Assembly (NCBI RefSeq): GCF_004341685.1
Contig: NZ_SMAA01000007.1
Span: 62,001-126,000 of the forward strand
Direction of reading: 5' to 3'
Length of the DNA stretch: 64,000 bases
DNA from: Pectinatus cerevisiiphilus
GTDB lineage: Bacteria > Bacillota > Negativicutes > Selenomonadales > Selenomonadaceae
Shown: one piece after another, positions 4,742 through 19,679 of the stretch
How positions within the stretch are numbered: the stretch's first letter is position 1
Layout of the letters: every line of letters starts with the position of its first letter
Program-made: the position numbers and the translations under genes
The notes under the pieces: model-generated
Seen by the model: the letters and a program-made list of their open reading frames with translations, nothing else
Database searches by the model: none
Told to the model about the DNA's origin: nothing

Positions 4742-5890
4742 CTATTGCCATTTACGTAGTCTTCGCCTAAACATAAACCTACAGACAACAAGGAAAAAGA
4801 TTCCCATGCAAGCCAGGATTGACAAAGTCTGCCACATGTCAGTCAAAGTCCCGGTAAAAAACAACCTTCTGATACTGTTGCCCATATACGTAAAGGGAGA
4901 AAATTTTGCCAGTGTACCTGAATATAGATCCATGGATTCGAGCGGCCATGTATATCCAGACAATATAAACGCCGGCACAACATAAATAAGCGCTGCTCTT
5001 ACAAAATATATTTCTCTGGAAAAAATAGCTGACAAACACATGCCCAGTGAAACTGCCGTGAAAAAGAAAGTCCCGCTTAGCAGTAGGGTAGAAGACAGAG
5101 ATCCTTTATTAGTTATGTAAAAAATATTTCTTGCTAATAAAGTAATGACACCAAACGCCAGCATTGACATCACCCAATAAATTAAAAATTTTACTACTAA
5201 CAGTTTATCAAAATTAATCTTCTTTGTTAGCAGCTTAAATTTTGCCAATGTATATTCTTTCTGGATGGATGCCCCAACAGAAAAAAACAACCCTTGCTGC
5301 ATAGCAATCATTGCCAACCCTAAAACAAAAAATTGTAGATAGCTTTGTGTCGGATTCCCCAAGACACGCAGATTACACTCTACCGGTTCAACTTTCTTTT
5401 TTGCATCTTCATAACTGAGTCCTGCTTTCAAAGAAACATTTTCTATTGCTACCTTGTTCGAAAGATCCTGGATGCTATCCATCATCGCTATGCTGGAAGC
5501 ACTTGTAGTGACCAGATTACTCCCATCTACCATACACAGTATTGTCGCATAGGACCCCGTCCTAACCTTCTTAGAAAGATCAGCCGGTATATCAACAGCA
5601 GCATATACTACTTTTTCATTGATTAGACGCTGCATTTCTTCTTCAGATGTCACCTCAGCAACTATTTTAAATCTTTCATCATAATCAAGATTGCGTACTA
5701 ATTGCCGGCTAAGGCTCGACTGCGCTTCATCACAAATGACGAGAGGGATATGTGTAACAGTACTATTGTAATACAAACCACCGAACAAAAGCAGATATGC
5801 TATCCCTGCACCAAACAAAAATGTTACCCGTCTAGAATCCTCTATGAAAATCTGATGAAGCTCTCGTTTTATTATTTGCCAAAATGTCAT
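4742..5890 (-). CDS. ABC-2 type permease (YhiI/YbhR-like), second of a pair
   Basis: Integral membrane subunit of an exporter, 382 residues. It has one N-terminal helix (about residues 22-41), a large extracytoplasmic region to about residue 180 (IPLVICDEAQSSLSRQLVRN is typical of this family) and five helices in the C-terminal half, the ABC2_membrane_3 layout. It shares this layout with its 381-residue neighbour, so the two presumably form a heterodimer. It starts four bases after that gene. No ATP-binding subunit is encoded in the operon. Confidence 0.85.
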   Translation of the reverse strand: MTFWQIIKRELHQIFIEDSRRVTFLFGAGIAYLLLFGGLYYNSTVTHIPLVICDEAQSSLSRQLVRNLDYDERFKIVAEVTSEEEMQRLINEKVVYAAVDIPADLSKKVRTGSYATILCMVDGSNLVTTSASSIAMMDSIQDLSNKVAIENVSLKAGLSYEDAKKKVEPVECNLRVLGNPTQSYLQFFVLGLAMIAMQQGLFFSVGASIQKEYTLAKFKLLTKKINFDKLLVVKFLIYWVMSMLAFGVITLLARNIFYITNKGSLSSTLLLSGTFFFTAVSLGMCLSAIFSREIYFVRAALIYVVPAFILSGYTWPLESMDLYSGTLAKFSPFTYMGNSIRRLFFTGTLTDMWQTLSILACMGIFFLVVCRFMFRRRLRKWQ

Positions 5891-5894
5891 CTTT

Positions 5895-7040
5895 TCATCC
5901 CTTCACATAAGACTTTTTTCTTCTAAAAGAAAATATCTTTAGCGTCACTGCTGCTGCCAATAAACCAAACAAAAGCATATAGGATACATCACGCCACAAA
6001 AACGGATCAGATTCCGAAAATAACACACTTCTTAAATTAACTGCGGCATAACTTATTGGTAACAAACTGGAAAAAAACTTCCCAAATGAAGTCATCAAAA
6101 AATCTGGCCATGTCAGACCACTGAAAAGTAATCCAGGCATCAAATAAACAAGTGGAACCTGTAATGAAAAAACCTCATCCACACTGATAGACGAAAAAAA
6201 GAACATTGCCTGAATGACAAAAAAACTGAACGCTACACCTATAGCAAGTAACTCAATTACTTTATGTGCTATTTGTAAATCCATAATAAAAAACAATACC
6301 GTCATAGAAACTACATAAGACAGCACAGCTAAAATCCAGGATGGAATAGTTTTTCCTATCAATAAAGACAACGATGAATATTCTTTCCCATATTTTTTAG
6401 ACTTATATTCCCGCACCAGCAACGGTCCTACTGCCAGTAAAATGCCTATCTGCAAACCATTCAGCATCAATCCTGGCAGCATAAATGGTTTATACCCTGT
6501 GACAGGATTATTCAATACGCGTAAACCCATGTGTATTGGATAGACCAGATTCATTGATTGGCTAGGCAATATTCCGCCCGCTTCAAACAGTTTCTGCGAT
6601 ATGGCAATAGAAAAGGTCTGATTCATTTGCTTACTGTACATGAGAGCAACATTACCAAATAAATTATTAGTAGAATTAACTACCAATAACAGATTACTTG
6701 CATCCCCCAATTCTACTTTTTTCGTAAAATCAGGTGGGATAGAAAGTCCGACTAATGCCTTATTTGTTGCTAAATCTTCCTCAAAAGATTCTTGGTCTGG
6801 CACATAATCAACAATCGTAAATTTTTCCGAATCATTATATATCTGAACTAATTGCCTACTGATAGAGCTATTTTCTTGGTCAAAAATAACTAAAGGAATA
6901 TGCTTTACACTATTTTGGGCATAAACCATACTAAACAATACAGAAAAAAGAATCGGTACAATAAAAAAATACAATGCGATAGGAAATTTGCCCTTAAAAA
7001 GGAGGGCAAATTCGTCGCGAATTATTTTTTTTAACTTCAT
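5895..7040 (-). CDS. ABC-2 type permease (YbhS-like), first of a pair
   Basis: A 381-residue membrane protein with the same architecture as the next gene: one N-terminal helix, an extracytoplasmic domain with HIPLVIFDQENSSISRQLVQ, then five C-terminal helices. Its ATG overlaps the stop of the HlyD-like gene (ATGA), indicating translational coupling. Paired permeases of this kind work with a HlyD-type fusion protein in drug or envelope-component export in Gram-negative-type cells. The missing ATPase is discussed as a finding. Confidence 0.85.
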   Translation of the reverse strand: MKLKKIIRDEFALLFKGKFPIALYFFIVPILFSVLFSMVYAQNSVKHIPLVIFDQENSSISRQLVQIYNDSEKFTIVDYVPDQESFEEDLATNKALVGLSIPPDFTKKVELGDASNLLLVVNSTNNLFGNVALMYSKQMNQTFSIAISQKLFEAGGILPSQSMNLVYPIHMGLRVLNNPVTGYKPFMLPGLMLNGLQIGILLAVGPLLVREYKSKKYGKEYSSLSLLIGKTIPSWILAVLSYVVSMTVLFFIMDLQIAHKVIELLAIGVAFSFFVIQAMFFFSSISVDEVFSLQVPLVYLMPGLLFSGLTWPDFLMTSFGKFFSSLLPISYAAVNLRSVLFSESDPFLWRDVSYMLLFGLLAAAVTLKIFSFRRKKSYVKG

Positions 7041-8056
7041 GATGCAGCGCCACCATTTAACTTGAACCTCATCCCAGGGCGCAGTTTATCCGAGTTTACC
7101 TGAACTTTTACATTAAAGCTTATTATATCAGTACTGTCACCGCGTTCACTAGTTGCACGCTGTGTGGCAAAGTCAGCTTTTTTACTGATATCTGATACTG
7201 TCCCGCTCACTTGGGTAGTATTGTCACGGGCAATTAAATTAAGATCCTGATTCACATAGAATTTGGAAAGCTCTGTTTCTGGTATCTTGAAATCAACCCA
7301 GTTATCAGTTGGATCTTGGACAGCAACAAGTGGCGTACCTAATGATATCATTGACCCTTCTTCTATGTATTTTTCTGTTATGACACCATCAAAAGGCGCT
7401 CTTATAGTTGTTTCATCTAATTGGACATCCAATTGCTGCAATGCAGCTTTAGCTTGATCGATCTTTTTATCTACAACATTTTCATTTGCTTTATCAACGC
7501 CGGTCTGCAATAAACCTGCATTTGCTTTATCTACCGCAGATGAAGCTTGCATATAAGTAGCTTGCGCCGCTTCATATTTAGTCTTGTATTCATCAAACAT
7601 CTGTTGGGAAATAGCACCAGATTCAACCAGATTGGAAAAACGGTCATAATCGCTCTTAGCAAGATCCAGTTCCGTTTTAGCCTGTTTGAGCCCTGCTTGT
7701 GCCATATCCAAGGAAGAATATACTGTTCCCCCATTTAACGAGCTTTGGGCAGAAGCTTGTTCTTCTTGTTCCTGCAACGACTGTATATTTGCCACAAGTT
7801 GTTCCCGCTGCGCTACCAAATCTCTCTTATCTATATAAGCCAATACTTGTCCTTCTTTTACTGTATCGCCTTCCTTGACCAAGAGTTGCACTACTCTGCC
7901 TGCCACTTTAGAATTGACATCAATTTCTTTGGCATCTGCTCTTCCCCATATTTCATTTTCAGCGGTTTCCTGTGATCCGCAACCGCATATATTTAACAAA
8001 ATAATTACTAATACTGCTATACATATAACTTTCTTATCTTGTATTTTATTTTTCAC
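7037..8056 (-). CDS. HlyD-family periplasmic adaptor lipoprotein
   Basis: Membrane-fusion component bridging the permeases to the outer envelope. A lipoprotein signal ends at LLNICGCG. The biotinyl-lipoyl half motif follows (VAGRVVQLLVKEGDTVKEGQ), then a long alpha-helical hairpin rich in Ala/Gln/Glu (about residues 80-190) and the second lipoyl half (APFDGVITEKYIEEGSMI). I place the start at a GTG at 8056, eight bases after AAGGGG. An upstream ATG at 8131 would put the operator and promoter inside the gene and is rejected. The product is about 339 residues. Confidence 0.88.
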   Translation of the reverse strand: MKNKIQDKKVICIAVLVIILLNICGCGSQETAENEIWGRADAKEIDVNSKVAGRVVQLLVKEGDTVKEGQVLAYIDKRDLVAQREQLVANIQSLQEQEEQASAQSSLNGGTVYSSLDMAQAGLKQAKTELDLAKSDYDRFSNLVESGAISQQMFDEYKTKYEAAQATYMQASSAVDKANAGLLQTGVDKANENVVDKKIDQAKAALQQLDVQLDETTIRAPFDGVITEKYIEEGSMISLGTPLVAVQDPTDNWVDFKIPETELSKFYVNQDLNLIARDNTTQVSGTVSDISKKADFATQRATSERGDSTDIISFNVKVQVNSDKLRPGMRFKLNGGAAS

Positions 8057-8072
8057 TGCTCTTTCCCCTTTT

Positions 8073-8086
8073 TTGAACATGTTCAA
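8073..8086. promoter_or_regulatory. Palindromic operator TTGAACATGTTCAA at the exporter promoter
   Basis: A perfect 14-bp palindrome just downstream of a TATAAT at 8091-8096 (minus strand) and upstream of the HlyD ribosome site. The same 14 bases lie at the promoter of the adjacent TetR gene (8877-8890). It is very probably the TetR operator. Confidence 0.8.
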
Positions 8087-8191
8087 CAAAATTATATATA
8101 AATACACTCTACCAAGTATTAATAATTTCATAAAGTAACCTGATTACCAATACTGTAGAGTGCGTATCTACATGCCTATTATTTTAGCATA

Positions 8192-8860
8192 TTATAGCTT
8201 AACTGAATCCCTGATCAATTGATGGGCAATACTCGTTAGACGCCCATCTAATTGTTCCAGACGTTTTAATACAGTCCTTATTTCATCTTTACTATATTCA
8301 AATAATGATAAAGACATCTCCACTAACATATCAGAACATTTTTTAGATGATACTTCATCATTTTTAAAATAAAGTTTTGCCGCACAGCTACGTAGCGCTC
8401 CTCTGATAAGTAGATTTCTGACATAATAATCTTGTCTACTATAATGAAGCTGGCGTTCCTTAAACATTGTTTCTGTTGTATCCGTCACATGCTCAACAAT
8501 CTGCTCAAAAATTGCATTCGATGTATATCCTTCATAATAAGACTCTCTGATAAATTCATTGACATCAGCAGCTTTTATACTTATCACATTCATAGCTGCA
8601 TATTTAAAAGCAGGCGATTCATCAGCAAAATATTTATTAATAAGTACTGTGTTCTGCTTCACTACTAAAAGTACTATTTCTCGAAAAATAGCTTCTTTAT
8701 TTTTATAAAAATGATATATACTGCCTGTTAAGATACCCGATTTTTCCACAATCTGCCGAATCGTTGTCTTTTTATAGCCCTGCTCAACAAAAAGGGCTTT
8801 AGCCATTGCCAAAATCCTTGCGGATACATTGCCTGTCTGATTATTAGCAGATTTTTCCAA
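8192..8860 (-). CDS. TetR-family transcriptional repressor of the exporter operon
   Basis: About 222 residues. The N-terminal helix-turn-helix reads KTTIRQIVEKSGILTGSIYH, preceded by ILAMAKALFVEQGY as expected for TetR. The C-terminal ligand domain is helical and diverse. I place the start at TTG 8860, five bases after AGGGGAAGTT; the ATG at 8890 would start inside the operator. The gene lies directly upstream of the exporter on the same strand, and both promoters carry the same palindrome, so it probably represses itself and the operon until an export substrate binds. Confidence 0.88.
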   Translation of the reverse strand: MEKSANNQTGNVSARILAMAKALFVEQGYKKTTIRQIVEKSGILTGSIYHFYKNKEAIFREIVLLVVKQNTVLINKYFADESPAFKYAAMNVISIKAADVNEFIRESYYEGYTSNAIFEQIVEHVTDTTETMFKERQLHYSRQDYYVRNLLIRGALRSCAAKLYFKNDEVSSKKCSDMLVEMSLSLFEYSKDEIRTVLKRLEQLDGRLTSIAHQLIRDSVKL

Positions 8861-8876
8861 AACTTCCCCTCCCTCC

Positions 8877-8918
8877 TTGAACATGTTCAAATATATTACA
8901 TATTCAAATATTTGTCAA
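8877..8918 (-). promoter_or_regulatory. Promoter and operator of the TetR gene
   Basis: TTGACA (8913-8918), 17 bases, TATATT (8890-8895), with the perfect palindrome TTGAACATGTTCAA (8877-8890) starting at the -10 element and covering the expected transcription start. Confidence 0.85.
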
Positions 8919-8967
8919 TGCTAATTTTTAATAAGCTTTTTCTTTTTTCCTCCATTTCCAATAATAG

Positions 8968-9014
8968 AAAACCAGCTGCTATTATATTTTTAACATACAA
9001 TAACAACTGGTTTT
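8968..9014 (-). terminator. Terminator of the hut operon
   Basis: AAAACCAG and CTGGTTTT arms with a long AT-rich loop that can pair partly. It lies about 30 bases past the hutU stop. T-runs flank it on both strands. Confidence 0.6.
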
Positions 9015-9043
9015 TTATATATTATCTTCTATATTATACAAAA

Positions 9044-11059
9044 TCACTTCTCAATAAACATCTTATCTACTAATTTTGTTATTAAATCCTCATCAGCAAT
9101 AAAAGGAATTGTTATATGCCCTTTACCGGCGTACTTTTTATTAAACTCTACAGAAGTCTCTATTGCGTGCGGATTACGTGCCCAGCTGCGACGGGCAACG
9201 CCCCCCATCACATCCCAAAGTATAGCCGATTTTATAATCTTATCAACACGTTCACTACCATCAAGTACCAGCCCAAAACCACCATTTATAGCTTTGCCGA
9301 TACCTGTACCTCCACCATTGTGGAGAGAAATAAGGCTCATACCGCGAGCCGCATTGCCCGCATAACACTGTACTGCCATATCAGCCATCACATTACTGCC
9401 ATCCTTAATATTGGAAGTTTCCCGAAACGGTGAGTCAGTGCCACTGACATCATGATGGTCGCGTCCCAACATTATCGGTCCGGTTTTACCCTCGCGAACC
9501 AGCTCATTAAACTTGAGCGCAATCTTAATACGGCCTTCAGCATCTTGGTAAAGAATGCGTGCCTGTGTTCCTACCACCATTTTGTTTTTTTCTGCATCAC
9601 GGATCCAGTTGTAATTATCTCTATCCTGGTATCTGCGCTTTGGATCTATACACTCCATCGCTGCTTTATCTGTCTGTACTAGATCTTCATGTCTGCCACT
9701 TAGACATACCCAGCGAAATGGGCCATATCCATAATCAAAAAGATGCGGTCCCATTATATCTTCTACATAAGACGGTAAAATAAAACCATCTTTTTCATCA
9801 ATGCCATTCTTTGATAATTCCTTCACACCCGCATCATAAACTGCTTTAAGAAAAGAATTCCCATAATCAAAAAAATATGTTCCTTTTTTGACACATGCCA
9901 TTATCAATTCATAATGACGGCGCAGGCTTTTATCGACAAGCTTGCTAAACGTTTCTCTGTCTTCCGCCAGCATACGGGTACGCTCTTCAAAGCTTATCCC
10001 CTGCGGACAGTAGCCACCTTCATAAGCTACATGGCATGAAGTCTGGTCACTCATCAAATCAACCTTGATATCATTTTTCACCACATATTCTAAAAGATCA
10101 ACAATGTTACCATTATACGCTATAGAAATAGTTGTTTTATCCCGTAAATGCTTATTAGCCGCTGCAAAAACTTTATTAAGATCATCATAACATTCACCGA
10201 CCCAGCCCTGCTCAAGACGTGTCTTTATACGTGAATAATCTACTTCGGCAATTATGCCAACACCATTAGCTATTTCTACAGCTTTTGGTTGAGCACCGCT
10301 CATTCCGCCTAAGCCAGAGCTTACAAATAAATGCCCGCGCAAATCTCCATCATTAGAAATACCCAGATGCATACGTCCTGCATTTAACAATGTGTTATAA
10401 GTACCATGAACGATTCCCTGCGGTCCTATATACATCCAACCACCAGCCGTCATTTGCCCATAGTTTGCAACACCCATTTCTTCGGCTATTTCCCAATCTT
10501 TTTCATTATCAAACATCCCTATCATCAAAGCATTAGTGTTTATAACACGCGGTGCATCCGGTTTTGAAGGGAAAAGACCAAGTGGCATTCCAGATTCTAT
10601 TACCAGTGTCTGTTCATTAGTCAATATTTCCAAATATTTTTTAATAAGCCTATAACCAAGCCAATCATGGCATACACTGCCTGTTTCACCATAAGTAACT
10701 AATTCATAAGGATATAATGCTACCTCAAAATCAAGATTATTATCTATCATGACCTGAAAAGCTTTTCCTTCTATACAGTTACCTTTATATTCATCTATTG
10801 GTTTCCCATATATCCGCCCCTGCGGCCTCCACCGATAAGCGTATATACGGCCATATGTTTTTAATTCCTGTAAAAATTCTGGAGCTGCTTTTGCATGCAG
10901 CTCTGCCGGCAAATAACGCAAAGCATTTTTTAAGGCAACTTTTGTCTGCTCTTGCGTCAAGTGAAATCCTCTGCTTGGTGCCCTGCGTATTCCTTCTATA
11001 AATACTGGTTTATCAGGAAAAATATTATCCAATTTTATTTCCGTCATTGCCTGTACCAT
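9044..11059 (-). CDS. hutU: Urocanate hydratase (large form)
   Basis: Adds water to urocanate to give 4-imidazolone-5-propionate, using tightly bound NAD+. At 671 residues it is the long form, near the eukaryotic length and about 110 residues longer than the Pseudomonas/Bacillus enzyme. Recognisable segments are SGLGGMSGAQPKA (NAD-binding loop, about residue 250), DQTSCHVAYEGGYCPQG, DYGNSFLKA, GRDHHDVSG and SLHNGGGTGIGKA near the C-terminus. It is last in the operon, 26 bases after hutI, with GGAG ten bases before the ATG. Confidence 0.95.
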   Translation of the reverse strand: MVQAMTEIKLDNIFPDKPVFIEGIRRAPSRGFHLTQEQTKVALKNALRYLPAELHAKAAPEFLQELKTYGRIYAYRWRPQGRIYGKPIDEYKGNCIEGKAFQVMIDNNLDFEVALYPYELVTYGETGSVCHDWLGYRLIKKYLEILTNEQTLVIESGMPLGLFPSKPDAPRVINTNALMIGMFDNEKDWEIAEEMGVANYGQMTAGGWMYIGPQGIVHGTYNTLLNAGRMHLGISNDGDLRGHLFVSSGLGGMSGAQPKAVEIANGVGIIAEVDYSRIKTRLEQGWVGECYDDLNKVFAAANKHLRDKTTISIAYNGNIVDLLEYVVKNDIKVDLMSDQTSCHVAYEGGYCPQGISFEERTRMLAEDRETFSKLVDKSLRRHYELIMACVKKGTYFFDYGNSFLKAVYDAGVKELSKNGIDEKDGFILPSYVEDIMGPHLFDYGYGPFRWVCLSGRHEDLVQTDKAAMECIDPKRRYQDRDNYNWIRDAEKNKMVVGTQARILYQDAEGRIKIALKFNELVREGKTGPIMLGRDHHDVSGTDSPFRETSNIKDGSNVMADMAVQCYAGNAARGMSLISLHNGGGTGIGKAINGGFGLVLDGSERVDKIIKSAILWDVMGGVARRSWARNPHAIETSVEFNKKYAGKGHITIPFIADEDLITKLVDKMFIEK

Positions 11060-11085
11060 TTTATTTTTGCTCCTTTATTTTTACT

Positions 11086-12330
11086 CTAAAATATAATTTT
11101 GCCATCTTTTATCACATGCTCAACTATATTTATTCCCGTTAAATAAACCAAAAATCGGTAATCTGGTTTGCTTAAAAGTAAAATATCCGCCTTTTTACCA
11201 CTTTCTATGCTGCCAATAACATCAGCAGCATCCACCGCCGCTGCTGCGTTTAATGTAATAGCCGTGAGTGCTTCATTAATCGTCATATGCATACTGATCA
11301 CAGCAAGTGCAAGCATAAAAGGCGCTGCATATGAATAACAACTGCCCGGATTGAAATCACTCGCCAAAGCTACTATACAGCCTTTATCTATCATTTTGCG
11401 AGCTGGAGCAAATTCTTTACGCATACAAAATGCTGTCATGGGCAATAATACCGCTGTCGTATCACTCACTGCCAATTTTTCTATATCCGCATCTGTAACA
11501 GACAATAAATGGTCGGCACTTATTGCACCTATTTCTACAGCCAAACTGCCTCCGCCCGTTGACACTATTTCATCGGCATGAATTTTAAGTTTCATACCTG
11601 CTTTTTTTGCCGCTAAAAGCAATTTTTTTGCTTCATCTATTGTAAATACATTTTTTTCACAAAATACATCACAAAATTCCGCAAGATTTTCCTCTTTTAT
11701 TATCGGCAGTACCTGTTCTATTATAAAATCTATATAATCAGTTGACCTATCCGCAAATTCTGGTGGTACGGCATGTGCTCCTAAAAAAGTTGTTTTCAAG
11801 GTAACTGGCATATCTTTGCGTAATTTTTTCATTGTCCGCAGCATTTTAAGCTCCGTATTTCTATCAAGCCCATAACCACTCTTACCCTCTATTGTCGTAA
11901 ATCCTTGCCTTAGCATATTTTCAAGAGTTTTTTTACCAGTATTGTACAGCTCCGTTTCTGTCATAAGCCGTGTCTGTCGCATAGTACTAACTATACCGCC
12001 GCCTCTTTTTAACAGCTCCATATAGGGGATACCCTCAAGCCGTGAAATAAATTCATCAGCACGGGTACCGCCAAACAAAAAATGGGTATGTGGATCTATA
12101 AATCCTGGTACTGCACATTTCCCCTGCGCATCCAGTACTTGTATATCTGTTATACCATCTAACTTTGACAATACTTGCTCATCTATTCCAACCAGTTTTA
12201 TTATTCCATTTTCACAATAAACAGCCGCATTTTTATAAACCTTGACATCCTGCATTGCTTTTCCTCTCAATGCGGTTTTACCAAGTGGAGTAACAATTTC
12301 AGCCAAATTTTTTACAAGCAGGCGATTCAT
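11086..12330 (-). CDS. hutI: Imidazolonepropionase
   Basis: Hydrolyses 4-imidazolone-5-propionate to N-formimino-L-glutamate. It is an amidohydrolase-fold metalloenzyme with the HxH motif in DPHTHFLFGGTRADEF, LKIHADE in the middle (metal His) and SDFNPGS (metal Asp) near residue 320. The GAGG site is eight bases before the ATG at 12330 (414 residues); a GTG at 12339 overlaps that site and is less likely. It follows the small aconitase X gene by about 30 bases. Confidence 0.95.
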   Translation of the reverse strand: MNRLLVKNLAEIVTPLGKTALRGKAMQDVKVYKNAAVYCENGIIKLVGIDEQVLSKLDGITDIQVLDAQGKCAVPGFIDPHTHFLFGGTRADEFISRLEGIPYMELLKRGGGIVSTMRQTRLMTETELYNTGKKTLENMLRQGFTTIEGKSGYGLDRNTELKMLRTMKKLRKDMPVTLKTTFLGAHAVPPEFADRSTDYIDFIIEQVLPIIKEENLAEFCDVFCEKNVFTIDEAKKLLLAAKKAGMKLKIHADEIVSTGGGSLAVEIGAISADHLLSVTDADIEKLAVSDTTAVLLPMTAFCMRKEFAPARKMIDKGCIVALASDFNPGSCYSYAAPFMLALAVISMHMTINEALTAITLNAAAAVDAADVIGSIESGKKADILLLSKPDYRFLVYLTGINIVEHVIKDGKIIF

Positions 12331-12362
12331 TAGCTTCACCTCATCTTCTATGCAATTTTTGC

Positions 12363-12767
12363 CTATAGTTTTCTTAAAATACCATTTTCAGCATCTAATT
12401 CCACCATATCACCATCGTGCAAATCTTTATAAAAGTTTTCTTCCATCTTATTCACCATTGGTGCATCTAAAATAATTGCACTTGCCGCCAAGGTTGTATC
12501 AGCATTTACGACAATCATGCCCGCGGGATTCATACCTGTCATTTTCAACTGGTACATGCCATCTGCTTGTACTACAGAACTGCCTTTACCATAAGGAAAT
12601 ACTAAAATCTTACCAGCAATTGACTGTCCGTATAAGCAGTGTTCTTTTTCTATAATCTTACCATTTTTAGGTTCAATAAGATAAAAACACATTCCATCTT
12701 TCGAAAAAAGCAACTCTCCACTCACCTTACCACCTGATATTTTATGGCACTTATATTGTTTTTCCAT
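12363..12767 (-). CDS. Aconitase X swivel (small) subunit, DUF126 type
   Basis: 134 residues matching the swivelling domain that completes the active site of aconitase X. Family-like segments are PYGKGSSVVQADGMYQLKMT (about residues 55-75), AGMIVVNADTTLAASAIILD and DGDMVELDAENGILRKL at the C-terminus. It starts one base after the catalytic subunit ends, so the two are certainly co-expressed. Characterised relatives dehydrate cis-3-hydroxy-L-proline (bacteria) or phosphomevalonate (archaea). The substrate in a histidine operon is not known. Confidence 0.85.
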   Translation of the reverse strand: MEKQYKCHKISGGKVSGELLFSKDGMCFYLIEPKNGKIIEKEHCLYGQSIAGKILVFPYGKGSSVVQADGMYQLKMTGMNPAGMIVVNADTTLAASAIILDAPMVNKMEENFYKDLHDGDMVELDAENGILRKL

Positions 12768-12768
12768 T

Positions 12769-13968
12769 TTAATATTCCCCTTTCAATGCTGCGAGCACGC
12801 TATCTTTAAGCGGTGCTATAACAAACTGCATATCCCGTCTTTTGGTATAATAAGCACATTTGGGAGAATCTGTTATTCCTTTTTTGCCATATAAAAATTT
12901 CCAGCATGGCTGATCCATACAAGTATCTTCTACTATTTCACCACCTGCTGCCCTTATTGTGTCCATATATCCCATTTTTTTTGCCAAATTGCGCGTCAAG
13001 GCAGAGGTCATGATAAACAAAGGAACCGCCAGTTTTTTTCCATCCACCAGTTCAGCAATAGCACATACCTGATCAATCGTAAAATGAGGACACCCATACA
13101 AAGCAAAATCTATCTTACCGCTTTTATCAGATATTTCTTCGCGCATAGATTTTAGATCAGCATTTGTGATAGTTACTTCACGTTGTGGTTTTTTCCCTTG
13201 GAATGCATCCTCCATAGTTTGAGCTTCCGGTGTAAAACCCAATATGTGGTAAAGAGCTACATTACCACCTGTATTAAGCTGCGCACCTAAATTCATTAAA
13301 GCCTCCTTGCTGGGATTTTTTAATCCGGCAAATACTGGTATAGCAAAACCAATTTTTTTTGGTGCAAAATAACCAAGCATCTGATAAGCAAAATCATCTT
13401 CCATATCAGCTTCTACATGCACTAACACCTGTCCCGCCCGATTTTCTTTTAATAAAAAACCATAATATGGTGTTACGCCTGTAACAGCACTGCACAATGC
13501 ACTCTGTGCTGATTCTCTGTTAGAGCGGGCACCATAAACAGAATTTACAAAGGGTGTAGCACTTGACTCGGAAAATGAAATGATTTCACCAAACCGTGGT
13601 ACATTCCTTTCTAAATAAGGCGTACAGTCATAAGTCATTATTGCCCCTAGTTTTACATAAGCGGCATGCGTGCGCTTGACTATTTTTTCATCCTCGCTGT
13701 CTATATTAGTTATTGCCTGAAACTGTTCCAAATTAAAACTCGGATTCACTGTTGGCCGTACACGGCATTTTGCTCCGCCATCCGCTAATTTTTCAGCAAA
13801 CCAAAGATCGGCCTCCTGGTTACTAAGCGCTACATGAGTACGCGTTACAGGCACCATTTTAGGAGCATCATAAGCTTCCCCTATAGCGACCAATATTTTC
13901 ATAGCCAGTTGTGTTCCTTTTCCATAAACACCATCCAGCATTTTTTCCTCTTCTTTTGTCAAATACAT
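12769..13968 (-). CDS. Aconitase X catalytic (large) subunit, DUF521 type
   Basis: A hydro-lyase subunit of 399 residues, usual for an unfused AcnX large subunit. Candidate iron-sulfur or active-site cysteines are Cys115 (MTYDCTPYL), Cys293 (YGCPHFT), Cys350 (VEDTCMDQP) and Cys371 (DSPKCAYYT). FSESSATPFVNSVYGARSNR (129-148) is the family's substrate-loop type segment. It has a strong GGGGAGG site. It lies between a HutF-like gene and hutI on one strand, so it belongs to the hut transcript. Which molecule it dehydrates or hydrates is unresolved. Confidence 0.88.
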   Translation of the reverse strand: MYLTKEEEKMLDGVYGKGTQLAMKILVAIGEAYDAPKMVPVTRTHVALSNQEADLWFAEKLADGGAKCRVRPTVNPSFNLEQFQAITNIDSEDEKIVKRTHAAYVKLGAIMTYDCTPYLERNVPRFGEIISFSESSATPFVNSVYGARSNRESAQSALCSAVTGVTPYYGFLLKENRAGQVLVHVEADMEDDFAYQMLGYFAPKKIGFAIPVFAGLKNPSKEALMNLGAQLNTGGNVALYHILGFTPEAQTMEDAFQGKKPQREVTITNADLKSMREEISDKSGKIDFALYGCPHFTIDQVCAIAELVDGKKLAVPLFIMTSALTRNLAKKMGYMDTIRAAGGEIVEDTCMDQPCWKFLYGKKGITDSPKCAYYTKRRDMQFVIAPLKDSVLAALKGEY

Positions 13969-14053
13969 ATGTAAACCTCCCCAATTAATTATTTATTTGA
14001 TAATGAATTACCCTTTTGCATAATCAACGACTGCATAAAATTTTAGCAATACT

Positions 14054-15394
14054 TTATACTGCCTCAAGATGCTCCATTGTTTTTCCTATTTCTTCCAGTA
14101 TACGTTCTTCTGCTATATTTACTAATTTCCCCTGCATAACAGTTGTTTTTCCATTTACAGCAACGCGCTTGATTGCTGTTGGTTGCATAGAATAGACGAG
14201 ATTTGGCAGGAATTGTTGTCCCTTTTTAGTCAATGGTTGCATAGAAAAATCCTGCACAGATATGCCAACAAAATCGGCTTTACAACCTACTGTAATTTTA
14301 CCGACAGGTAAATCCAATACAGTACCACCATTTTCTGTTCCCATTTTAAATGCATCATGAAAATTGACACAAAGCGCATTACACGTTTCAGCTTTTTGCA
14401 GAATTGATACCATGCGCATTTCTTCAAATACACTAATGCGATTATTGCCACAGGCTCCATCACTACCCAATGCTATAGGTACAGCAGCTGCCATATACGC
14501 TGGAATATTTGTGATACCATCGGCAAGAAACATATTACTTGATGGACAGTAAATAAGATGTGCTCCTTTTTGTCCCATTATCTTCACTTCGTCTTCATTA
14601 AGCCACACTCCGTGGATTATTGACATATGTGCATCAACTACACCTAAATAATCAAGATAACGTAATGGCGTCATACCATTGTGTTCTTTTTTTACTTGTT
14701 CTACTTCAAACATTTCTTCTGCTACATGAATATGATATGGTGAATTATACTTCTGGGCGAGATGATACCCAGCTTTAATCATTTCTGGTGAAGCAGCATG
14801 AAGACTATGTGGTGCAGGTAAAACTTTCACCATTCCCCCCGTATATTTTTTCATGAGGGATTCCGTCCGATTAACCGCTGTCTGCACATCTTCCACATAA
14901 CCAGAAGGTGCACCCTGCCAATCATACATTGTCCTGGCAAGAACCAATCTAATCCCACAATCTTTTGCTGCCTGAATAACTGCTTCATCACTTTCGCTGC
15001 CAAATTGATGCAGATAAAAAAAATCAGCTACAGTTGTTGCTCCACATTTCAGCATCTCCGTAAAAGCAAATAGTGCCCCTGTATAAATATCCTGTAATCG
15101 CATACGCGGTGAAAATTTATACAGTGAATTATCTCGCCATTCCAGAAAAGGCCGATCTGCTGCTATGCCGCGCAACAAACTTTGAAAACTATGATTATGT
15201 GCGTTTATACTGCCTGGAACAATAACAAGCCCGCCCCAATCCTCCTTTAGCGCATCGTTATATTCTTTACCTAATTTTTCTTCAGCATCTATTTTTTCGA
15301 TGTTACCAGTATGCATATTTACTGCTATCGCCAAATTTTTTACAAGTTTTCCTTCAAGAAAGATAGCTGCTGCTTTTATTATTTTTATCGACAT
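14054..15394 (-). CDS. Amidohydrolase, probable formiminoglutamate deiminase (HutF-like)
   Basis: A 446-residue amidohydrolase of the TRZ/ATZ-HutF group. Metal-site segments are NAHNHSFQS (His66, His68), YHIHVAEE near residue 218, IIHGVWL, and ALGSDGACGNNRISVFEEMR. FLEWRDNSLYKF and VADFFYLH recall HutF, while the GNNRISVFEEMR end is closer to SsnA/guanine-deaminase-like enzymes. From context it would deiminate N-formimino-glutamate to N-formyl-glutamate and ammonia. The ATG overlaps the stop of the M20 gene (TAATG). An alternative is another imidazole- or formimino-compound hydrolase. Confidence 0.72.
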   Translation of the reverse strand: MSIKIIKAAAIFLEGKLVKNLAIAVNMHTGNIEKIDAEEKLGKEYNDALKEDWGGLVIVPGSINAHNHSFQSLLRGIAADRPFLEWRDNSLYKFSPRMRLQDIYTGALFAFTEMLKCGATTVADFFYLHQFGSESDEAVIQAAKDCGIRLVLARTMYDWQGAPSGYVEDVQTAVNRTESLMKKYTGGMVKVLPAPHSLHAASPEMIKAGYHLAQKYNSPYHIHVAEEMFEVEQVKKEHNGMTPLRYLDYLGVVDAHMSIIHGVWLNEDEVKIMGQKGAHLIYCPSSNMFLADGITNIPAYMAAAVPIALGSDGACGNNRISVFEEMRMVSILQKAETCNALCVNFHDAFKMGTENGGTVLDLPVGKITVGCKADFVGISVQDFSMQPLTKKGQQFLPNLVYSMQPTAIKRVAVNGKTTVMQGKLVNIAEERILEEIGKTMEHLEAV

Positions 15395-16665
15395 TATTCA
15401 AACTCCTTATCTAAAATCAATAATGTATCAAGATAAACCTGCGCTGCTATAATCACCTCTCTCGGTGCAGTATACTCTTGCGGACAATGACTGTAACCAC
15501 CAACGCTCTGTGCAAAGAGCATAGCGGCTTTAGTCAATCTAGCCATATTGGCTGCATCATGTCCAGCCATGCTTACAAGTTTTACCGGTGGTTGCCCTTC
15601 TTCTTGCATAGCTTTTACCACAGCGTCGATTACAGTTTCGTTCATTGGCATTTCCGGTTGGTCAAGATTTAACTTACGAATTATCTGCACGTTTCGTTTT
15701 TTCATTATTTCATTTACTTTTTCTGTCAATAACAATAATGCTTCTTCTCGTTCTGCTGGAAAAGCTGTACGCAAATCTATAGTAAAATACACTTCACCGG
15801 GTATAATATTTGAAGCATTCGGCTTTATCTGCATATGCCCTACTGTTACCGAAAGTGCGTTAAACTTCGCCATTAACTGCTCAATTGATAAACACAATTC
15901 TGACGCTGCGCATAATGCATCGTGCCTATCTTGCAGCTGCGTTGTACCTGCATGATTTGCTTCACCCTTTATTGTTATACTCTCTCTATAAATACCAGTA
16001 ATGCAAGTTACCGCTGCCACTGCCAATTTTTTACGGTATAAATTCTGTCCTTGTTCGATATGAAATTCCAAGAACGCCGTCATCATTCCCTTTTTCAATC
16101 TGGCCTCATTGATTCGCCTGCTATCCCCTCCCAGCCAATCAATTGCCTCTGTTAAAGGTCGTCCCGTATCTCGGTCACTGAATATATTTATATCTTTTTG
16201 AGTTACCCGCCCGCATAAAATTTTACTGCCTAATGTAGAAACAGAAAAACTATTTGGTTCTTCACCAGTAAAAGAAATTATTTCAAGGGGATGTCGTGTT
16301 TTTATTTTTCTTTCTCTTATCGACTGCATCGCTTCCATTGCCATCAATACACCAAGTGCTCCATCAAACTTCCCACCGTTCGGCACACTATCATGATGTG
16401 AACCAAAAACAATAGGCCTGTCACTAAGGTGCTTACCATAACTTCCCCACATATTAGCAGCAGCATCAATTGTAACCTTTAACCCTATATCCTTTTCCCA
16501 AATAGTTTTCAACCACTCACGTGTATCTTTATCAGCCTGACTACCCAGCTGCCTGTTTATCCCACCTGTTTTCTCATCCAATCCAAATTGTGACATTTCT
16601 TCAATTCTAGCCAATAAACGTTCACTATTTATTAAAATTTTCTTTTCGTCAACTTTTTCAACCAC
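15394..16665 (-). CDS. M20-family Zn-dependent amidohydrolase (N-carbamoyl/formyl amino acid hydrolase-like)
   Basis: 423 residues of the allantoate amidohydrolase / N-carbamoyl-L-amino-acid hydrolase group. Metal and catalytic segments are FGSHHDSVPNGGKFDGALGV (about residues 90-110), SFTGEEPNSF, FLEFHIEQG (about residue 210) and AGHDAANMA. It opens the hut operon, with a GTG start at 16665 ten bases after GGGG. No HutG homologue is present, so it may deformylate N-formyl-glutamate; decarbamoylation of N-carbamoyl-glutamate is the alternative. The function is inferred from context only. Confidence 0.8.
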   Translation of the reverse strand: MVEKVDEKKILINSERLLARIEEMSQFGLDEKTGGINRQLGSQADKDTREWLKTIWEKDIGLKVTIDAAANMWGSYGKHLSDRPIVFGSHHDSVPNGGKFDGALGVLMAMEAMQSIRERKIKTRHPLEIISFTGEEPNSFSVSTLGSKILCGRVTQKDINIFSDRDTGRPLTEAIDWLGGDSRRINEARLKKGMMTAFLEFHIEQGQNLYRKKLAVAAVTCITGIYRESITIKGEANHAGTTQLQDRHDALCAASELCLSIEQLMAKFNALSVTVGHMQIKPNASNIIPGEVYFTIDLRTAFPAEREEALLLLTEKVNEIMKKRNVQIIRKLNLDQPEMPMNETVIDAVVKAMQEEGQPPVKLVSMAGHDAANMARLTKAAMLFAQSVGGYSHCPQEYTAPREVIIAAQVYLDTLLILDKEFE

Positions 16666-16754
16666 ACAGCATCATCCCCTATTAAGCTACTTGTTGAATT
16701 ATTTCATTTATATTTTAATATAATAAATAAATCATTCAGTTGATAATAAAAAAA

Positions 16755-16781
16755 ATGCCTTATTCAAAATGAATAAAGCAT
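16755..16781 (-). terminator. Terminator of the rpiR-type gene
   Basis: ATGCTTTATTC and GAATAAGGCAT arms around ATTTT, followed by eight T on the minus strand. It separates the regulator from the hut operon. The operon promoter should lie in the AT-rich 16670-16750 segment. Confidence 0.85.
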
Positions 16782-16830
16782 CTTTGCTTCTAATCTAATG
16801 TAATTATTATAAAATTTCATTTTCTAATTG

Positions 16831-17691
16831 TCAATAGTAAACTTTATTTTCCAGTTCAATCTTTTCTATATCTTCCATTCGTTTTGATATTCCCGGAATT
16901 TCCTTAGCAGCATCACGCAAAAGTATATTGAAAAAAATCATAGGTGTACTATAAATATCAAAAATTGACGATACGGTAAGCGGTACACATACAGCGGCAT
17001 CACTACATTCCATCAGTGGTGAAAATTCACTGTCAGTAACACCGTATATATGGAATTTTTTTTCTTTTAACCTTTGACACTTTTCCACAAGAACACGCGG
17101 ATACCGTGGCATCATTACAGCTAATATGTTCACATTTTCCGGATCAGCAAGCTCTATTGTATCCCATTGCGGTGACGACGGTGTATATTTATAAACCATC
17201 CCTCTCATTTTATTCAAAATATACTGTACATAGGGGACTATGGTTGACGACATCCGTGCTGATAATAAAATTAAAGGTTTACTGGAAGCAAGCATACTTA
17301 CTATTTTCTTATATTCATCAGTTTCCATTATACTACCGAGTTTTTCCATATTTGCCAATTCATTATCAAATATAGAATGCATATATTTATCTTTAATCCC
17401 ATGCTTTTCTGTAAATTGCAGCCTTTTCGGTGCCGTTAATTCCTTACTTACTATATTCTGCAAGTTTTGCAAAAAATCATTATATCCCCTGTAGCCGAGT
17501 GCCATAAAAAACCTTGATATACTTCCCTGACTAACACCCACCTGTTCGGCCAATTCATTAGTTGTCATAAAAACGATCTGTAAGTAATTATCATTTATAT
17601 ATATGGCAATTTTCTTATACGTAGGTGATGTATCCGCAATAAATTTCAACATGACTGTCAATTGTTCAAAAGTCTCAATATTCTTTCCCAT
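16831..17691 (-). CDS. RpiR/MurR-family regulator, probable hut regulator
   Basis: 286 residues with an N-terminal helix-turn-helix (ELAEQVGVSQGSISRFFMAL, about residues 42-61) and a C-terminal SIS (sugar isomerase) domain from about residue 120 (KPLILLSARMSSTIVPYVQY). It is encoded directly upstream of the hut operon with its own terminator. SIS domains usually bind phosphosugars, but RpiR members next to catabolic operons generally control those operons; control of hut is an inference. The ribosome site is GAGAGG, seven bases from the ATG. Confidence 0.85.
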   Translation of the reverse strand: MGKNIETFEQLTVMLKFIADTSPTYKKIAIYINDNYLQIVFMTTNELAEQVGVSQGSISRFFMALGYRGYNDFLQNLQNIVSKELTAPKRLQFTEKHGIKDKYMHSIFDNELANMEKLGSIMETDEYKKIVSMLASSKPLILLSARMSSTIVPYVQYILNKMRGMVYKYTPSSPQWDTIELADPENVNILAVMMPRYPRVLVEKCQRLKEKKFHIYGVTDSEFSPLMECSDAAVCVPLTVSSIFDIYSTPMIFFNILLRDAAKEIPGISKRMEDIEKIELENKVYY

Positions 17692-17814
17692 ATATTATCC
17701 TCTCTTTTATTAATATAATAATTCATATATTAATATTAATACTTAATATATTTATTATACAGCAAAGATAGTGCGCTTTCTAATATATTTTAGAATAAAA
17801 TATCTAAAATATAT

Positions 17815-18381
17815 TTACCACTCAATTTTGCAAATAACAATTTTTGCCGACTCCACGGTACTTATTACTGTGCTTGCCGAATGACCATCCAAGTGCAGTA
17901 ATTTCCCCGCACACAAAGTAAGTTCTTTACACCCATCTACAATTTTATACTTTCCTGCTACTACATATATAAAATAATCACAATCTGTCTCCAAAACAAA
18001 ATTTTTGCTGTCATCAGTAAAGAGTTCAGCATTTTTATAAGCTCCATGTTTGAGCATAACATTAAAATCAGTACAACACCCATAACTGATTGTTTTATCT
18101 GCACCATCAAAAAAATGAGCTGTAAAGGGCATCAATTTAATTGTTTCCTGACCATTATGGATAAGTGTAATTACATTATCCAAACTCATCAAAATGCGGT
18201 CTATCCCTGTCAATTCCGTGAATTGGGATACATTTGTGGTCACTGTAGCTGAACTCAGACGCAATTTAAAACTTCTATCTTTATACTGTGAATTATGCGG
18301 CCAAATATATAACTGTGTAGTGGTTCCGCCACCCCACTCAGCAACTGGACATTCTGCCGCTGAAATTATTTTTGCAGACAT
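17815..18381 (-). CDS. hutD: HutD-family protein
   Basis: 188 residues of the HutD/Ves double-cupin fold. The HutD start pattern AEWGGGTTTQLYIWPHNS (residues 14-31) is clear, followed by RLSSATVT and the FTELTGIDRILMSLDN segment typical of the family. HutD proteins are found in hut clusters and are thought to restrain or tune histidine breakdown, with no enzyme activity established. The GGAGG site is well placed. Its presence supports the reading of this whole cluster as histidine utilisation. Confidence 0.9.
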   Translation of the reverse strand: MSAKIISAAECPVAEWGGGTTTQLYIWPHNSQYKDRSFKLRLSSATVTTNVSQFTELTGIDRILMSLDNVITLIHNGQETIKLMPFTAHFFDGADKTISYGCCTDFNVMLKHGAYKNAELFTDDSKNFVLETDCDYFIYVVAGKYKIVDGCKELTLCAGKLLHLDGHSASTVISTVESAKIVICKIEW

Positions 18382-18489
18382 ATTTTTCCTCCATGCTATT
18401 ATTTAAAGACAATAATTAAACTCAGACATCCAGACTACATAAAACAACATCTTTCCATTATTTTACTTTTAAATTATTATGCAATAAAA

Positions 18490-18521
18490 AAAGGCACCTA
18501 TCACTCATGATAAGCACCTTT
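18490..18521 (-). terminator. Terminator downstream of mnmA
   Basis: AAAGGTGCTTATCA pairs imperfectly with TGATAGGTGCCTTT, followed by a T-run on the minus strand. Confidence 0.75.
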
Positions 18522-18593
18522 GCCTGTTTCCAGTATAAAAGTAAAAAATTAAAATGTCAAGCTGCCTTTCAAGCTGTCAACGGTAAATAAATC

Positions 18594-19679
18594 TTATTTC
18601 AAAGGTTCTGTTATTATACCGCCGCCCAGAAGGATATCTCCATCGTAGAAAACTACTGATTGCCCTGGTGTAACAGCTCTCTGCGGTTTTTCAAAAATAA
18701 CCTTTGCAGTATTATTTGCCAATGGATACACTGTTACTTTGCACACATTTTTTCCATACCGAATCTGGGCATTCGTTTCCAACGGCCCTTCCAAACTATC
18801 AAAAGGAATCCAATGCAAATTTTTTGCCATAAGGCCCAATGAGAAAACATCTTTATTGCCACCGACTATTACTTGGTTTTTATCACTGTCAAGCCTTACT
18901 ACATATAAAGGTTCAGCTGCTGCAATCCCCAATCCCTTCCGTTGGCCTATCGTATAGAGAGGTAACCCATCATGCCTGCCTAATACATTACCGTGCACAT
19001 CGACAATATCGCCCGGTTCAAAATGCATTTTTGCATGATTTCGTAAGTATGCTTTATAATCATCATTTGGTATAAAGCATATTTCCTGGCTTTCTTTTTT
19101 ATTTGCCACTGGTAAATTATATGATCGCGCCATTTCGCGCGTCTGTGTCTTAGTAAACTTACTCAACGGAAAAACTATATGGCTAAGTACATCCTGCTCT
19201 AAATGATACATCACATAAGACTGATCTTTATGTGTATCAGCAGCACGCCTGATCAAATATCTTCCCGCTTCATTTTTTTCTATTGTAACATAGTGGCCGG
19301 TAGCCATATAATCAGCGCCCAGCTTCAGGCATTCACTGAGCAACCGACCAAACTTTATGTAATGATTGCAACGCACGCAAGGATTAGGTGTATGTGCTGA
19401 CATATATTCATCCACAAAATAATTTGTTACTTCTTTGGCAAATACATCTTTAAGATCCATGACGTAATGCTTGATATCCAGCATATTGCAAACTTTACGC
19501 GCATCCTTGACTGAGCTCAATTCATCATAGCTATCCTCTTTAGTAAAACCTCTCCCTTCATCACTTAATACCATCGTAACACCAAATACATCATATCCCT
19601 TGTCCAATAATATGGCAGCCGTTGTTGAGCTGTCCACCCCGCCGCTCATAGCAACGGCTATTTTCTTCTTTTCCACCAA
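18594..19679 (-). CDS. mnmA: tRNA-specific 2-thiouridylase MnmA
   Basis: Adds sulfur to U34 of tRNA-Lys, -Glu and -Gln. The PP-loop SGGVDSS lies at the N-terminus. The two catalytic cysteines are in HTPNPCVRCNHYIKFG and SQEICFIPNDDY, and TGHYVTIE and TIGQRKGLG are further family signatures. The AGGTGA site overlaps a GTG at 19688, so I choose the TTG at 19679 (eight-base spacing; 361 residues); a GTG at 19676 is also possible. The usual neighbouring cysteine desulfurase gene is absent. Confidence 0.95.
   Translation of the reverse strand: MVEKKKIAVAMSGGVDSSTTAAILLDKGYDVFGVTMVLSDEGRGFTKEDSYDELSSVKDARKVCNMLDIKHYVMDLKDVFAKEVTNYFVDEYMSAHTPNPCVRCNHYIKFGRLLSECLKLGADYMATGHYVTIEKNEAGRYLIRRAADTHKDQSYVMYHLEQDVLSHIVFPLSKFTKTQTREMARSYNLPVANKKESQEICFIPNDDYKAYLRNHAKMHFEPGDIVDVHGNVLGRHDGLPLYTIGQRKGLGIAAAEPLYVVRLDSDKNQVIVGGNKDVFSLGLMAKNLHWIPFDSLEGPLETNAQIRYGKNVCKVTVYPLANNTAKVIFEKPQRAVTPGQSVVFYDGDILLGGGIITEPLK

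Follow-up and report, generated by a model that had tools for sequence, protein, structure and literature searches.

What is an enzyme of the aconitase X (AcnX) family doing in an operon for histidine utilization (hut)? The question is raised by a 64,000-nucleotide stretch of the Pectinatus cerevisiiphilus genome (contig NZ_SMAA01000007.1, positions 62,001 to 126,000; hereafter, the window), where the genes for the large and small AcnX subunits (AcnX-L, 399 amino acids, 12769..13968; AcnX-S, 134 amino acids, 12363..12767; both on the minus strand) are separated by a single base and stand among hut genes, the order of transcription on the minus strand being HutD, RpiR, M20, HutF-like, AcnX-L, AcnX-S, hutI, and hutU. 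Coordinates and profile matches agree with the first-pass annotation, which had placed the AcnX pair, one base apart, between the HutF-like gene and hutI, with an RpiR regulator and hutD upstream on the same strand; the M20 gene between the RpiR and HutF-like genes had gone unmentioned. The answer we put forward is that this hut-type AcnX probably, if by no means certainly, dehydrates imidazolelactate to urocanate, which would provide an entry to the hut pathway that is free of histidine ammonia-lyase (HAL). The association of AcnX with hut genes is real and conserved, and is undescribed among the literature matches listed; the genomic context gives good support to a role of this AcnX clade in supplying urocanate; the identity of the substrate is predicted by reasoning.

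The AcnX-hut operon recurs in Pectinatus, Propionispira, Megamonas, Sporolactobacillus, Heyndrickxia, metagenome-assembled genomes (MAGs) of Selenomonadales and Lachnospiraceae and, in part, Ca. Dichloromethanomonas. When one genome per species was scanned, 23 loci emerged, including also a Clostridia MAG, Sporolactobacillus (7 loci), Heyndrickxia acidiproducens, and a distant Chloroflexi MAG; a further member of this set, from a Propionibacterium MAG (L065, 73% identity to the query), with AcnX truncated at the contig end and no hut gene within 6.2 kb, was dropped from the tree and the counts. The usual order, with many local variants, is RpiR, M20, HutF-like, AcnX-L, AcnX-S, a 2-hydroxyacid dehydrogenase or LarA, a binding protein of an ATP-binding cassette (ABC) transporter, hutU, hutI, the ABC permease and ATPase, and HutD. 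Within the stretches read, hutU and/or hutI accompany AcnX in 23 of the 25 hut-type rows of the AcnX-L tree, the exceptions (L054 and L130) being cut by contig ends, with M20 and HutF-like genes still visible in L054. Among 35 AcnX matches, 29 stretches were read besides the window, 3 hut-type and 26 around other AcnX types; outside these stretches, the AcnX of G159, G189, G454, G465, and G470 are counted as other types on their scores alone (280-333 bits). In the 26 stretches (9-18.5 kb), BLAST at 1e-6 detected no hutU, hutI, HutF-like, M20, or HutH gene, and no 2-hydroxyacid dehydrogenase or LarA either, with the proviso that other LarA groups could escape this control, the LarA of L070 having been found by Pfam only. 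The co-occurrence check that the first-pass annotation had called for thus speaks for a linkage conserved across several families and excludes a chance neighbor. The two hut clusters of Megamonas (G015) bear on the same point: one, with the order hutU-hutI-FtcD-FchA-HutH, carries HAL, whereas the other, which is separate from it, carries AcnX, HutF-like, and M20 genes (L122 6180-14167 and L042 4548-17595, respectively). Because the AcnX cluster has its own hutU and hutI in a genome that also carries a separate HAL cluster, it appears to encode a self-contained route and to be more than a histidine pathway to which one gene was added.

The genome from which the window comes (2.63 Mb, 100% complete) was searched throughout for PF00221, the HAL family, with no match; the operon therefore encodes a urocanase in an organism with no known means of forming urocanate from histidine. 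Of 101 sampled genomes of the family, 12 have AcnX over the cut-off, 17 have urocanase, and 11 have HAL. Urocanase is encoded in all 12 AcnX-positive genomes versus 5 of the 89 AcnX-negative ones (Fisher p = 5e-12, uncorrected for kinship), and none of the 84 urocanase-negative genomes has AcnX over the cut-off; the 5 genomes with urocanase and no AcnX all have HAL, and the 6 with urocanase and no HAL all have AcnX. When all the searched genomes with hut-type AcnX are considered (n = 25, 12 from the family and 13 others, the L064 genome not being among them), hutU is present in 25/25, and HAL is absent from 14, compared to 6 of the 128 hutU-positive genomes without hut-type AcnX, a strong pooled contrast (p = 4.5e-9), though one among related genomes, some of them incomplete MAGs, with the 25 not randomly drawn. 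The 128 controls comprise 5 genomes of the family and 123 from a phylum sample of 398 genomes, 127 of which have urocanase over the cut-off. The count of 6 is perhaps too high because, among these HAL-negative controls, G174 carries a HAL fragment that scores below the cut-off (24.1 bits), and in G297, G327, and G379 a contig ends less than 1 kb from the urocanase gene. Genomes with non-hut AcnX carry urocanase at the background rate (10/29 versus 127/398).

The protein itself points to familiar catalysis on an unfamiliar substrate. Profile matches (PF04412 for AcnX-L, 441 bits with a cut-off of 31.5; PF01989 for AcnX-S, 88.9 bits with a cut-off of 27), the predicted fold, and the catalytic residues all place the two subunits in the aconitase X family. 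The AlphaFold2 model of AcnX-L alone (pLDDT, the predicted local distance difference test, 87.9; less reliable at 117-121 and 131-134, where some of the active site lies) best matches 7cnr_A (Z 45.6, 2.1 Å over 380 residues, 39% identity), followed by type I chains at about 35, and other aconitase-superfamily chains at no more than 20.5. The best match is a subunit of the archaeal phosphomevalonate dehydratase (type IIb; TkAcnX, 7CNR/7CNS, and ApPMDh), likewise a two-subunit enzyme of the same fold, whereas AtAcnX (7CNP, type I) shares with the hut-type proteins the family, the fold (Z up to 34.9), and the base and carboxylate residues. Of the 54 AcnX-L sequences placed in a tree, the 25 hut-type ones cluster together (support 100/100), apart from TkAcnX and from AtAcnX, the latter represented by the 7D2R mutant and clustering with five rows that bear a type I-like DGC loop; L130, whose contig begins at AcnX, was assigned to the hut group on its sequence. 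Perhaps the clade corresponds to one of AcnX types IIc-IIf, subclasses without an assigned function (PMC8184944, PMC10040528).

In the alignment to 7CNR, the cluster cysteines of AcnX-L are C115, C293, and C350, corresponding to C110, C283, and C342 of TkAcnX, and are accompanied by E134, S135, K370, and Y374; in AcnX-S, aligned to 7CNR_B, Ser63 is the putative base. The Glu, Lys, Tyr, and Ser base are alike in TkAcnX, and hut-type AcnX has the three cysteines of a predicted [4Fe-4S] site as in type IIb. The catalytic and cluster residues, with roles taken from the work on TkAcnX and AtAcnX (PMC8184944), are kept in all 25 hut-type rows, except for Ser135, which is Thr in L115. The substrate loop of AcnX-L (R43-D54, RTHVALSNQEAD), in contrast, has been rebuilt: the consensus R[TAV]HVA[LST]SNQ[ED]AD holds in 25/25 rows and is four residues shorter than the loop of TkAcnX and two shorter than that of AtAcnX, which, according to PMC8184944, bind phosphate and the proline nitrogen, respectively. 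This shorter conserved loop replaces the phosphate-binding loop of type IIb (Tk 47-53), such that Gly48-Val49-Ser50 and Asn53 of TkAcnX face gaps or other residues in 25/25 hut-type rows, and both Asp203/Ile206 of AtAcnX and Ala47-Ser50 of TkAcnX face gaps. In AcnX-S, the insertion SSVVQADG, or a near variant, lies beside the base, and Tyr29 takes the position of AtAcnX Trp35 (the Leu27 site); in AcnX-L, the third cluster cysteine is at site 1 (C293), and Asp352 stands where AtAcnX has Cys510. Because the catalytic residues are kept whereas the substrate loop is replaced, the shared part of the reaction appears to be retained and the substrate to differ.

The neighborhood suggests what that substrate might be. 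Enzymes of 2-hydroxyacids are encoded in the AcnX cluster at 21 of 26 hut-type loci (the 25 tree rows and L034), namely, a D-2-hydroxyacid dehydrogenase relative at 15 (with the L032 protein, PF00389/PF02826, as the reference and the others detected by BLAST at 47-100% identity) and a LarA-family nickel-pincer protein at 6 more; the window, L056 (a short contig), L057, L115, and L130 have neither. The LarA proteins of L035 (11589-12836; genome of L071), L054 (8729-9994), and L058 (16253-17491) belong to NCBIfam NPN isomerase group 22 (LarAH group 22, NF052515), for which no substrate is named and which, recurring beside hut-type AcnX, is a candidate imidazolelactate racemase; the LarA of L070 comes closest to the malate racemase group without reaching the cut-off of that group. 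Since the same AcnX clade is adjoined by LarA proteins of two groups and by a single family of dehydrogenases, the substrate is likely to be a 2-hydroxyacid. LarC, the gene for the nickel-pincer cofactor, was dropped as support for LarA because it does not discriminate, being present in 23/25 genomes with or without LarA beside AcnX. Further neighbors include a HisC-type transaminase at L115 and, at the rumen locus L069, a second relative of the dehydrogenase together with proteins resembling acyl-CoA ligase and indolepyruvate-ferredoxin oxidoreductase (the latter at 554 of 651 bits). All these neighbors are consistent with imidazolepyruvate and imidazolelactate as a metabolic hub; no proline-type partner was found among the scanned neighbors of AcnX.

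In some Sporolactobacillus, a cassette of a short-chain dehydrogenase/reductase, a zinc-dependent alcohol dehydrogenase, and a HisD-like protein lies between AcnX-S and the dehydrogenase (L059 11625-14691, L064 5957-9029). The PDB relatives of the L059 HisD-like protein, encoded near AcnX-S, are histidinol dehydrogenases and sulfopropanediol dehydrogenases; the latter convert a diol to sulfolactate, a 2-hydroxyacid. The cassette resembles HpsOPN in its logic, from diol to 2-hydroxyacid, and might perhaps serve imidazolepropanediol. At L130, too, a HisD-like gene adjoins AcnX-S; a sequence of this kind is seen at L064, and at L061 and L066 the likeness is one of open reading frame (ORF) size. 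A different assemblage is found in Ca. Dichloromethanomonas elyunquensis (L070 1003-19053), where hutI, hutU, LarA, AcnX, a flavoenzyme of the Old Yellow Enzyme type, and FchA share one cluster with genes read, on sequence grounds alone, as glutamate mutase and methylaspartate ammonia-lyase; a genome search found no HAL in this organism, and the cluster perhaps encodes a fermentation from urocanate to methylaspartate.

In the scheme that we propose, the AcnX pair would be a [4Fe-4S] hydro-lyase that removes water from imidazolelactate, that is, 2-hydroxy-3-(imidazol-4-yl)propanoate, the 2-hydroxy-acid analogue of histidine, and the resulting urocanate would be broken down to glutamate by HutU and HutI, followed by the HutF-like deiminase and the M20 amidase. 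Where present, LarA (as a racemase) or the 2-hydroxyacid dehydrogenase would feed in the other enantiomer or imidazolepyruvate. The one vacant Fe would take the alpha-OH and the base would take the beta-H, which the imidazolium ring might render acidic enough, with the protonated imidazole as an electron sink that might make coenzyme A (CoA) or radical chemistry unnecessary; mechanism and direction are inferred, as is the [4Fe-4S] state of the cluster. HAL, a 4-methylideneimidazole-5-one (MIO) enzyme of another family that acts on histidine, would yield the same urocanate for the same downstream enzymes. In Stickland fermentation, phenyllactate dehydratase (FldBC) converts an aryl 2-hydroxyacid to the acrylate by CoA-dependent radical chemistry, whereas the AcnX route would need neither CoA nor radicals. 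With slightly less assurance than for the reaction itself, we lean towards regarding the new branch as a CoA-free and radical-free Fe-S imidazolelactate dehydratase with reversed AcnX regiochemistry, offering anaerobes a route independent of HAL; with the same cautious leaning, this route would run to the hut pathway from histidine-derived hydroxy and oxo acids, perhaps including imidazolepropanediol via the HisD-like enzyme. Older work by Coote and Hassall is said to have dealt with the degradation of imidazolyl-lactate by Pseudomonas, and EC 1.1.1.111 belongs to the same background. Among the matches listed for open-licence PubMed Central, judged by titles, abstract openings, and term counts, nothing joins AcnX with urocanate or imidazolelactate, and no described enzyme that dehydrates imidazolelactate to urocanate was found; passages of the LarA papers PMC12611868, PMC11796402, PMC7583248, and PMC11770544 contain nothing on the subject.

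Several observations weigh against imidazolelactate as the substrate. The characterized AcnX enzymes, as described in PMC8184944, remove the alpha-H and the beta-OH relative to the carboxylate. Imidazolelactate, with its alpha-OH and beta-H, would need the reverse, and this is the weak point of the proposal. Isocitrate likewise offers an alpha-OH and a beta-H to aconitase. Both the dehydrogenase and LarA are missing next to AcnX in the window strain and in P. haikarae, and the nearest relative of the dehydrogenase elsewhere has only 34% identity in the window strain's genome and 42% in P. haikarae (LarA was not sought there). The HutF-like and M20 proteins can be assigned roles at the family level only. 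With regard to HAL, besides the kinship and non-random sampling behind the pooled contrast, the comparison within the family alone is not significant (absent from 6/12 versus 0/5, p = 0.10), and 11/25 genomes with hut-type AcnX encode both enzymes. A plain substitution of AcnX for HAL is rejected on the last of these grounds; because 11 genomes have both, AcnX would be a second entry to the pathway rather than a mere replacement. In the window strain and P. haikarae, with neither the dehydrogenase nor LarA next to AcnX, imidazolelactate would have to come from the medium, a plausible source for bacteria of fermented drinks and foods.

The regiochemical difficulty disappears if AcnX dehydrates the beta-hydroxy acid 3-hydroxy-3-(imidazol-4-yl)propanoate to urocanate, with the usual loss of alpha-H and beta-OH. 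This reaction would suit the carboxylate, base, and Fe-binding residues, which are as in the beta-hydroxyacid AcnX enzymes, and would also account for the hutU/hutI linkage and the absence of HAL, but it leaves the recurrent dehydrogenase, LarA, HisC-like, and 2-oxoacid oxidoreductase-like neighbors unexplained, and no natural source of the compound is known to us, although no search was made for one; we consider it unlikely. Marginally less likely again is a ring-modified substrate, such as an N-methylated or otherwise substituted imidazolelactate. That would explain why a HutF-like/M20 pair takes the place of FtcD/FchA, a division of labor visible in Megamonas G015, where FtcD and FchA belong to the HAL cluster and the HutF-like and M20 genes, with their own hutU/hutI, to the AcnX cluster; yet hutU and hutI both exceed the ordinary equivalog cut-offs, with hutU far under those for thiourocanate hydratase, HutF followed by deformylation is a normal variant of the hut pathway, and L070 combines FchA with hut-type AcnX. 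Dehydrations being reversible, AcnX might instead hydrate urocanate to imidazolelactate, as an electron sink or a side branch to imidazolepyruvate and imidazoleacetate. The indolepyruvate-oxidoreductase-like and acyl-CoA ligase-like genes of rumen L069 are in keeping with such a branch, and HAL could supply the urocanate in 11/25 genomes, but the 14/25 without HAL have no known source of it, and the operon carries the downstream enzymes to glutamate; we deem this reversal improbable, a little more so than a ring-modified substrate.

The least credible option, in our estimate a very improbable one, is that AcnX acts on the hydroxyproline or mevalonate 5-phosphate substrates of known AcnX enzymes, with which it has the family and the fold in common. 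The clade is separate (100/100), the substrate residues Asp203/Ile206 of AtAcnX and Ala47-Ser50 of TkAcnX are missing, the hut linkage is conserved across families, and AcnX scores 229.9 of 700 bits with NF051439, a weak test given that a split enzyme could hardly reach the cut-off; a hydroxyproline or mevalonate role is rejected on residues, clade, and context. With it falls the conjecture of the first-pass annotation that the operon joins histidine and hydroxyproline catabolism, for which there is no proline-type partner among the scanned neighbors and no hydroxyproline gene either, as does the possibility, which it had left standing, that the pair sits among proven cis-3-hydroxyproline dehydratases; the active-site comparison that it had suggested shows catalytic residues kept and the substrate residues of AtAcnX missing. 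Its other conjecture, that AcnX handles a product of urocanate or imidazolone breakdown, is not borne out, given that HAL is often missing and the neighbors act on 2-hydroxy or 2-oxo acids; AcnX most likely sits before urocanate. Of the dedicated hydro-lyase step in histidine fermentation that it had envisaged, the dedicated pathway step survives as the best explanation, whereas the case for histidine fermentation is not made for an organism without HAL.

The dehydration of imidazolelactate thus remains the favored reading, and the rest of the operon supplies the enzymes that would follow it. Downstream of AcnX-S on the minus strand lie hutI, for imidazolonepropionase (11086..12339; TIGR01224, 452.7 bits, cut-off 298), and hutU, for the long form of urocanate hydratase (9044..11059; TIGR01228, 429.3, cut-off 375). 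Upstream, on the same strand, the HutF-like amidohydrolase (14054..15394), a probable formiminoglutamate deiminase, matches its family but falls below the cut-offs of two HutF models (187 of 413 and 208 of 362 bits). The adjacent M20 amidase of the hydantoinase/carbamoylase family (15394..16665) is above the TIGR01879 cut-off, has an N-carbamoyl-L-amino acid hydrolase as its nearest PDB relative, and probably releases glutamate from N-formyl- or N-carbamoyl-glutamate. It scores 358 of 520 bits with the ErtE model, a hint at the breakdown of ergothioneine or thiourocanate that was rejected on the scores of hutU with thiourocanate models (293.7 of 930 and 326.9 of 880 bits); no literature linking the AcnX hut locus to these compounds appears among the matches listed. 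The minus-strand genes for the RpiR-family regulator (16831..17691; HTH_6 and SIS domains), with relatives adjoining AcnX in most hut-type loci, and HutD (17815..18381; PF05962, 88 bits) complete the set. In Pectinatus brassicae (L032 14356-14938), HutD is apparently split into ORFs of 104 and 75 amino acids, whereas the window copy is intact.

A sigma-70 consensus promoter matching at 12 of 12 positions (16806..16834, minus strand) precedes the M20-HutF-AcnX-hutI-hutU unit and is the only perfect one in 8800-18800, promoter-type matches as a whole being no more frequent than in shuffles (40 found versus 38.4 expected); a terminator-like hairpin of 20 pairs follows hutU (8968..9014, minus strand). 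With this promoter before M20 and this hairpin after hutU, the unit is probably a single transcript. Before the AcnX unit lies a leader hairpin with a U-run (16750..16787), a candidate attenuator, with a second copy before hutD (18487..18523), both on the minus strand. The pattern GCAAnGRYGCTT...GYnYTTTTT, composed after copies of it had been seen, has two matches in the 64 kb window, as against none in 100 shuffles. Among 137 loci, it is present in 13, from 7 genomes of Pectinatus, Propionispira, and Megamonas, with no match in those of Sporolactobacillus or rumen Selenomonadales, and 3 of its 8 predicted pairs show double changes. Rfam returned nothing for it, either in the whole window at gathering scores or in 16660-18700 by E-value; the hairpin is a candidate attenuator or RNA regulator. 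Beyond hutU, an ORF reading of 4742-8890 on the minus strand shows a TetR-like regulator, an HlyD-like membrane fusion protein, and two ABC-2-type permeases beside the hut operon, probably an exporter.

If the proposed reaction is confirmed, an AcnX group beyond those characterized would gain a function, the source of urocanate in bacteria that have urocanase but no HAL would be explained, and LarAH group 22 (NF052515) would have a likely substrate. The reaction would also be a simple Lewis-acid answer to a type of dehydration that is generally ascribed, in Stickland fermenters, to CoA and radical chemistry. Surveys that infer histidine or imidazole-propionate metabolism from hutH, such as PMC13320830, would miss a urocanate source that depends on AcnX.

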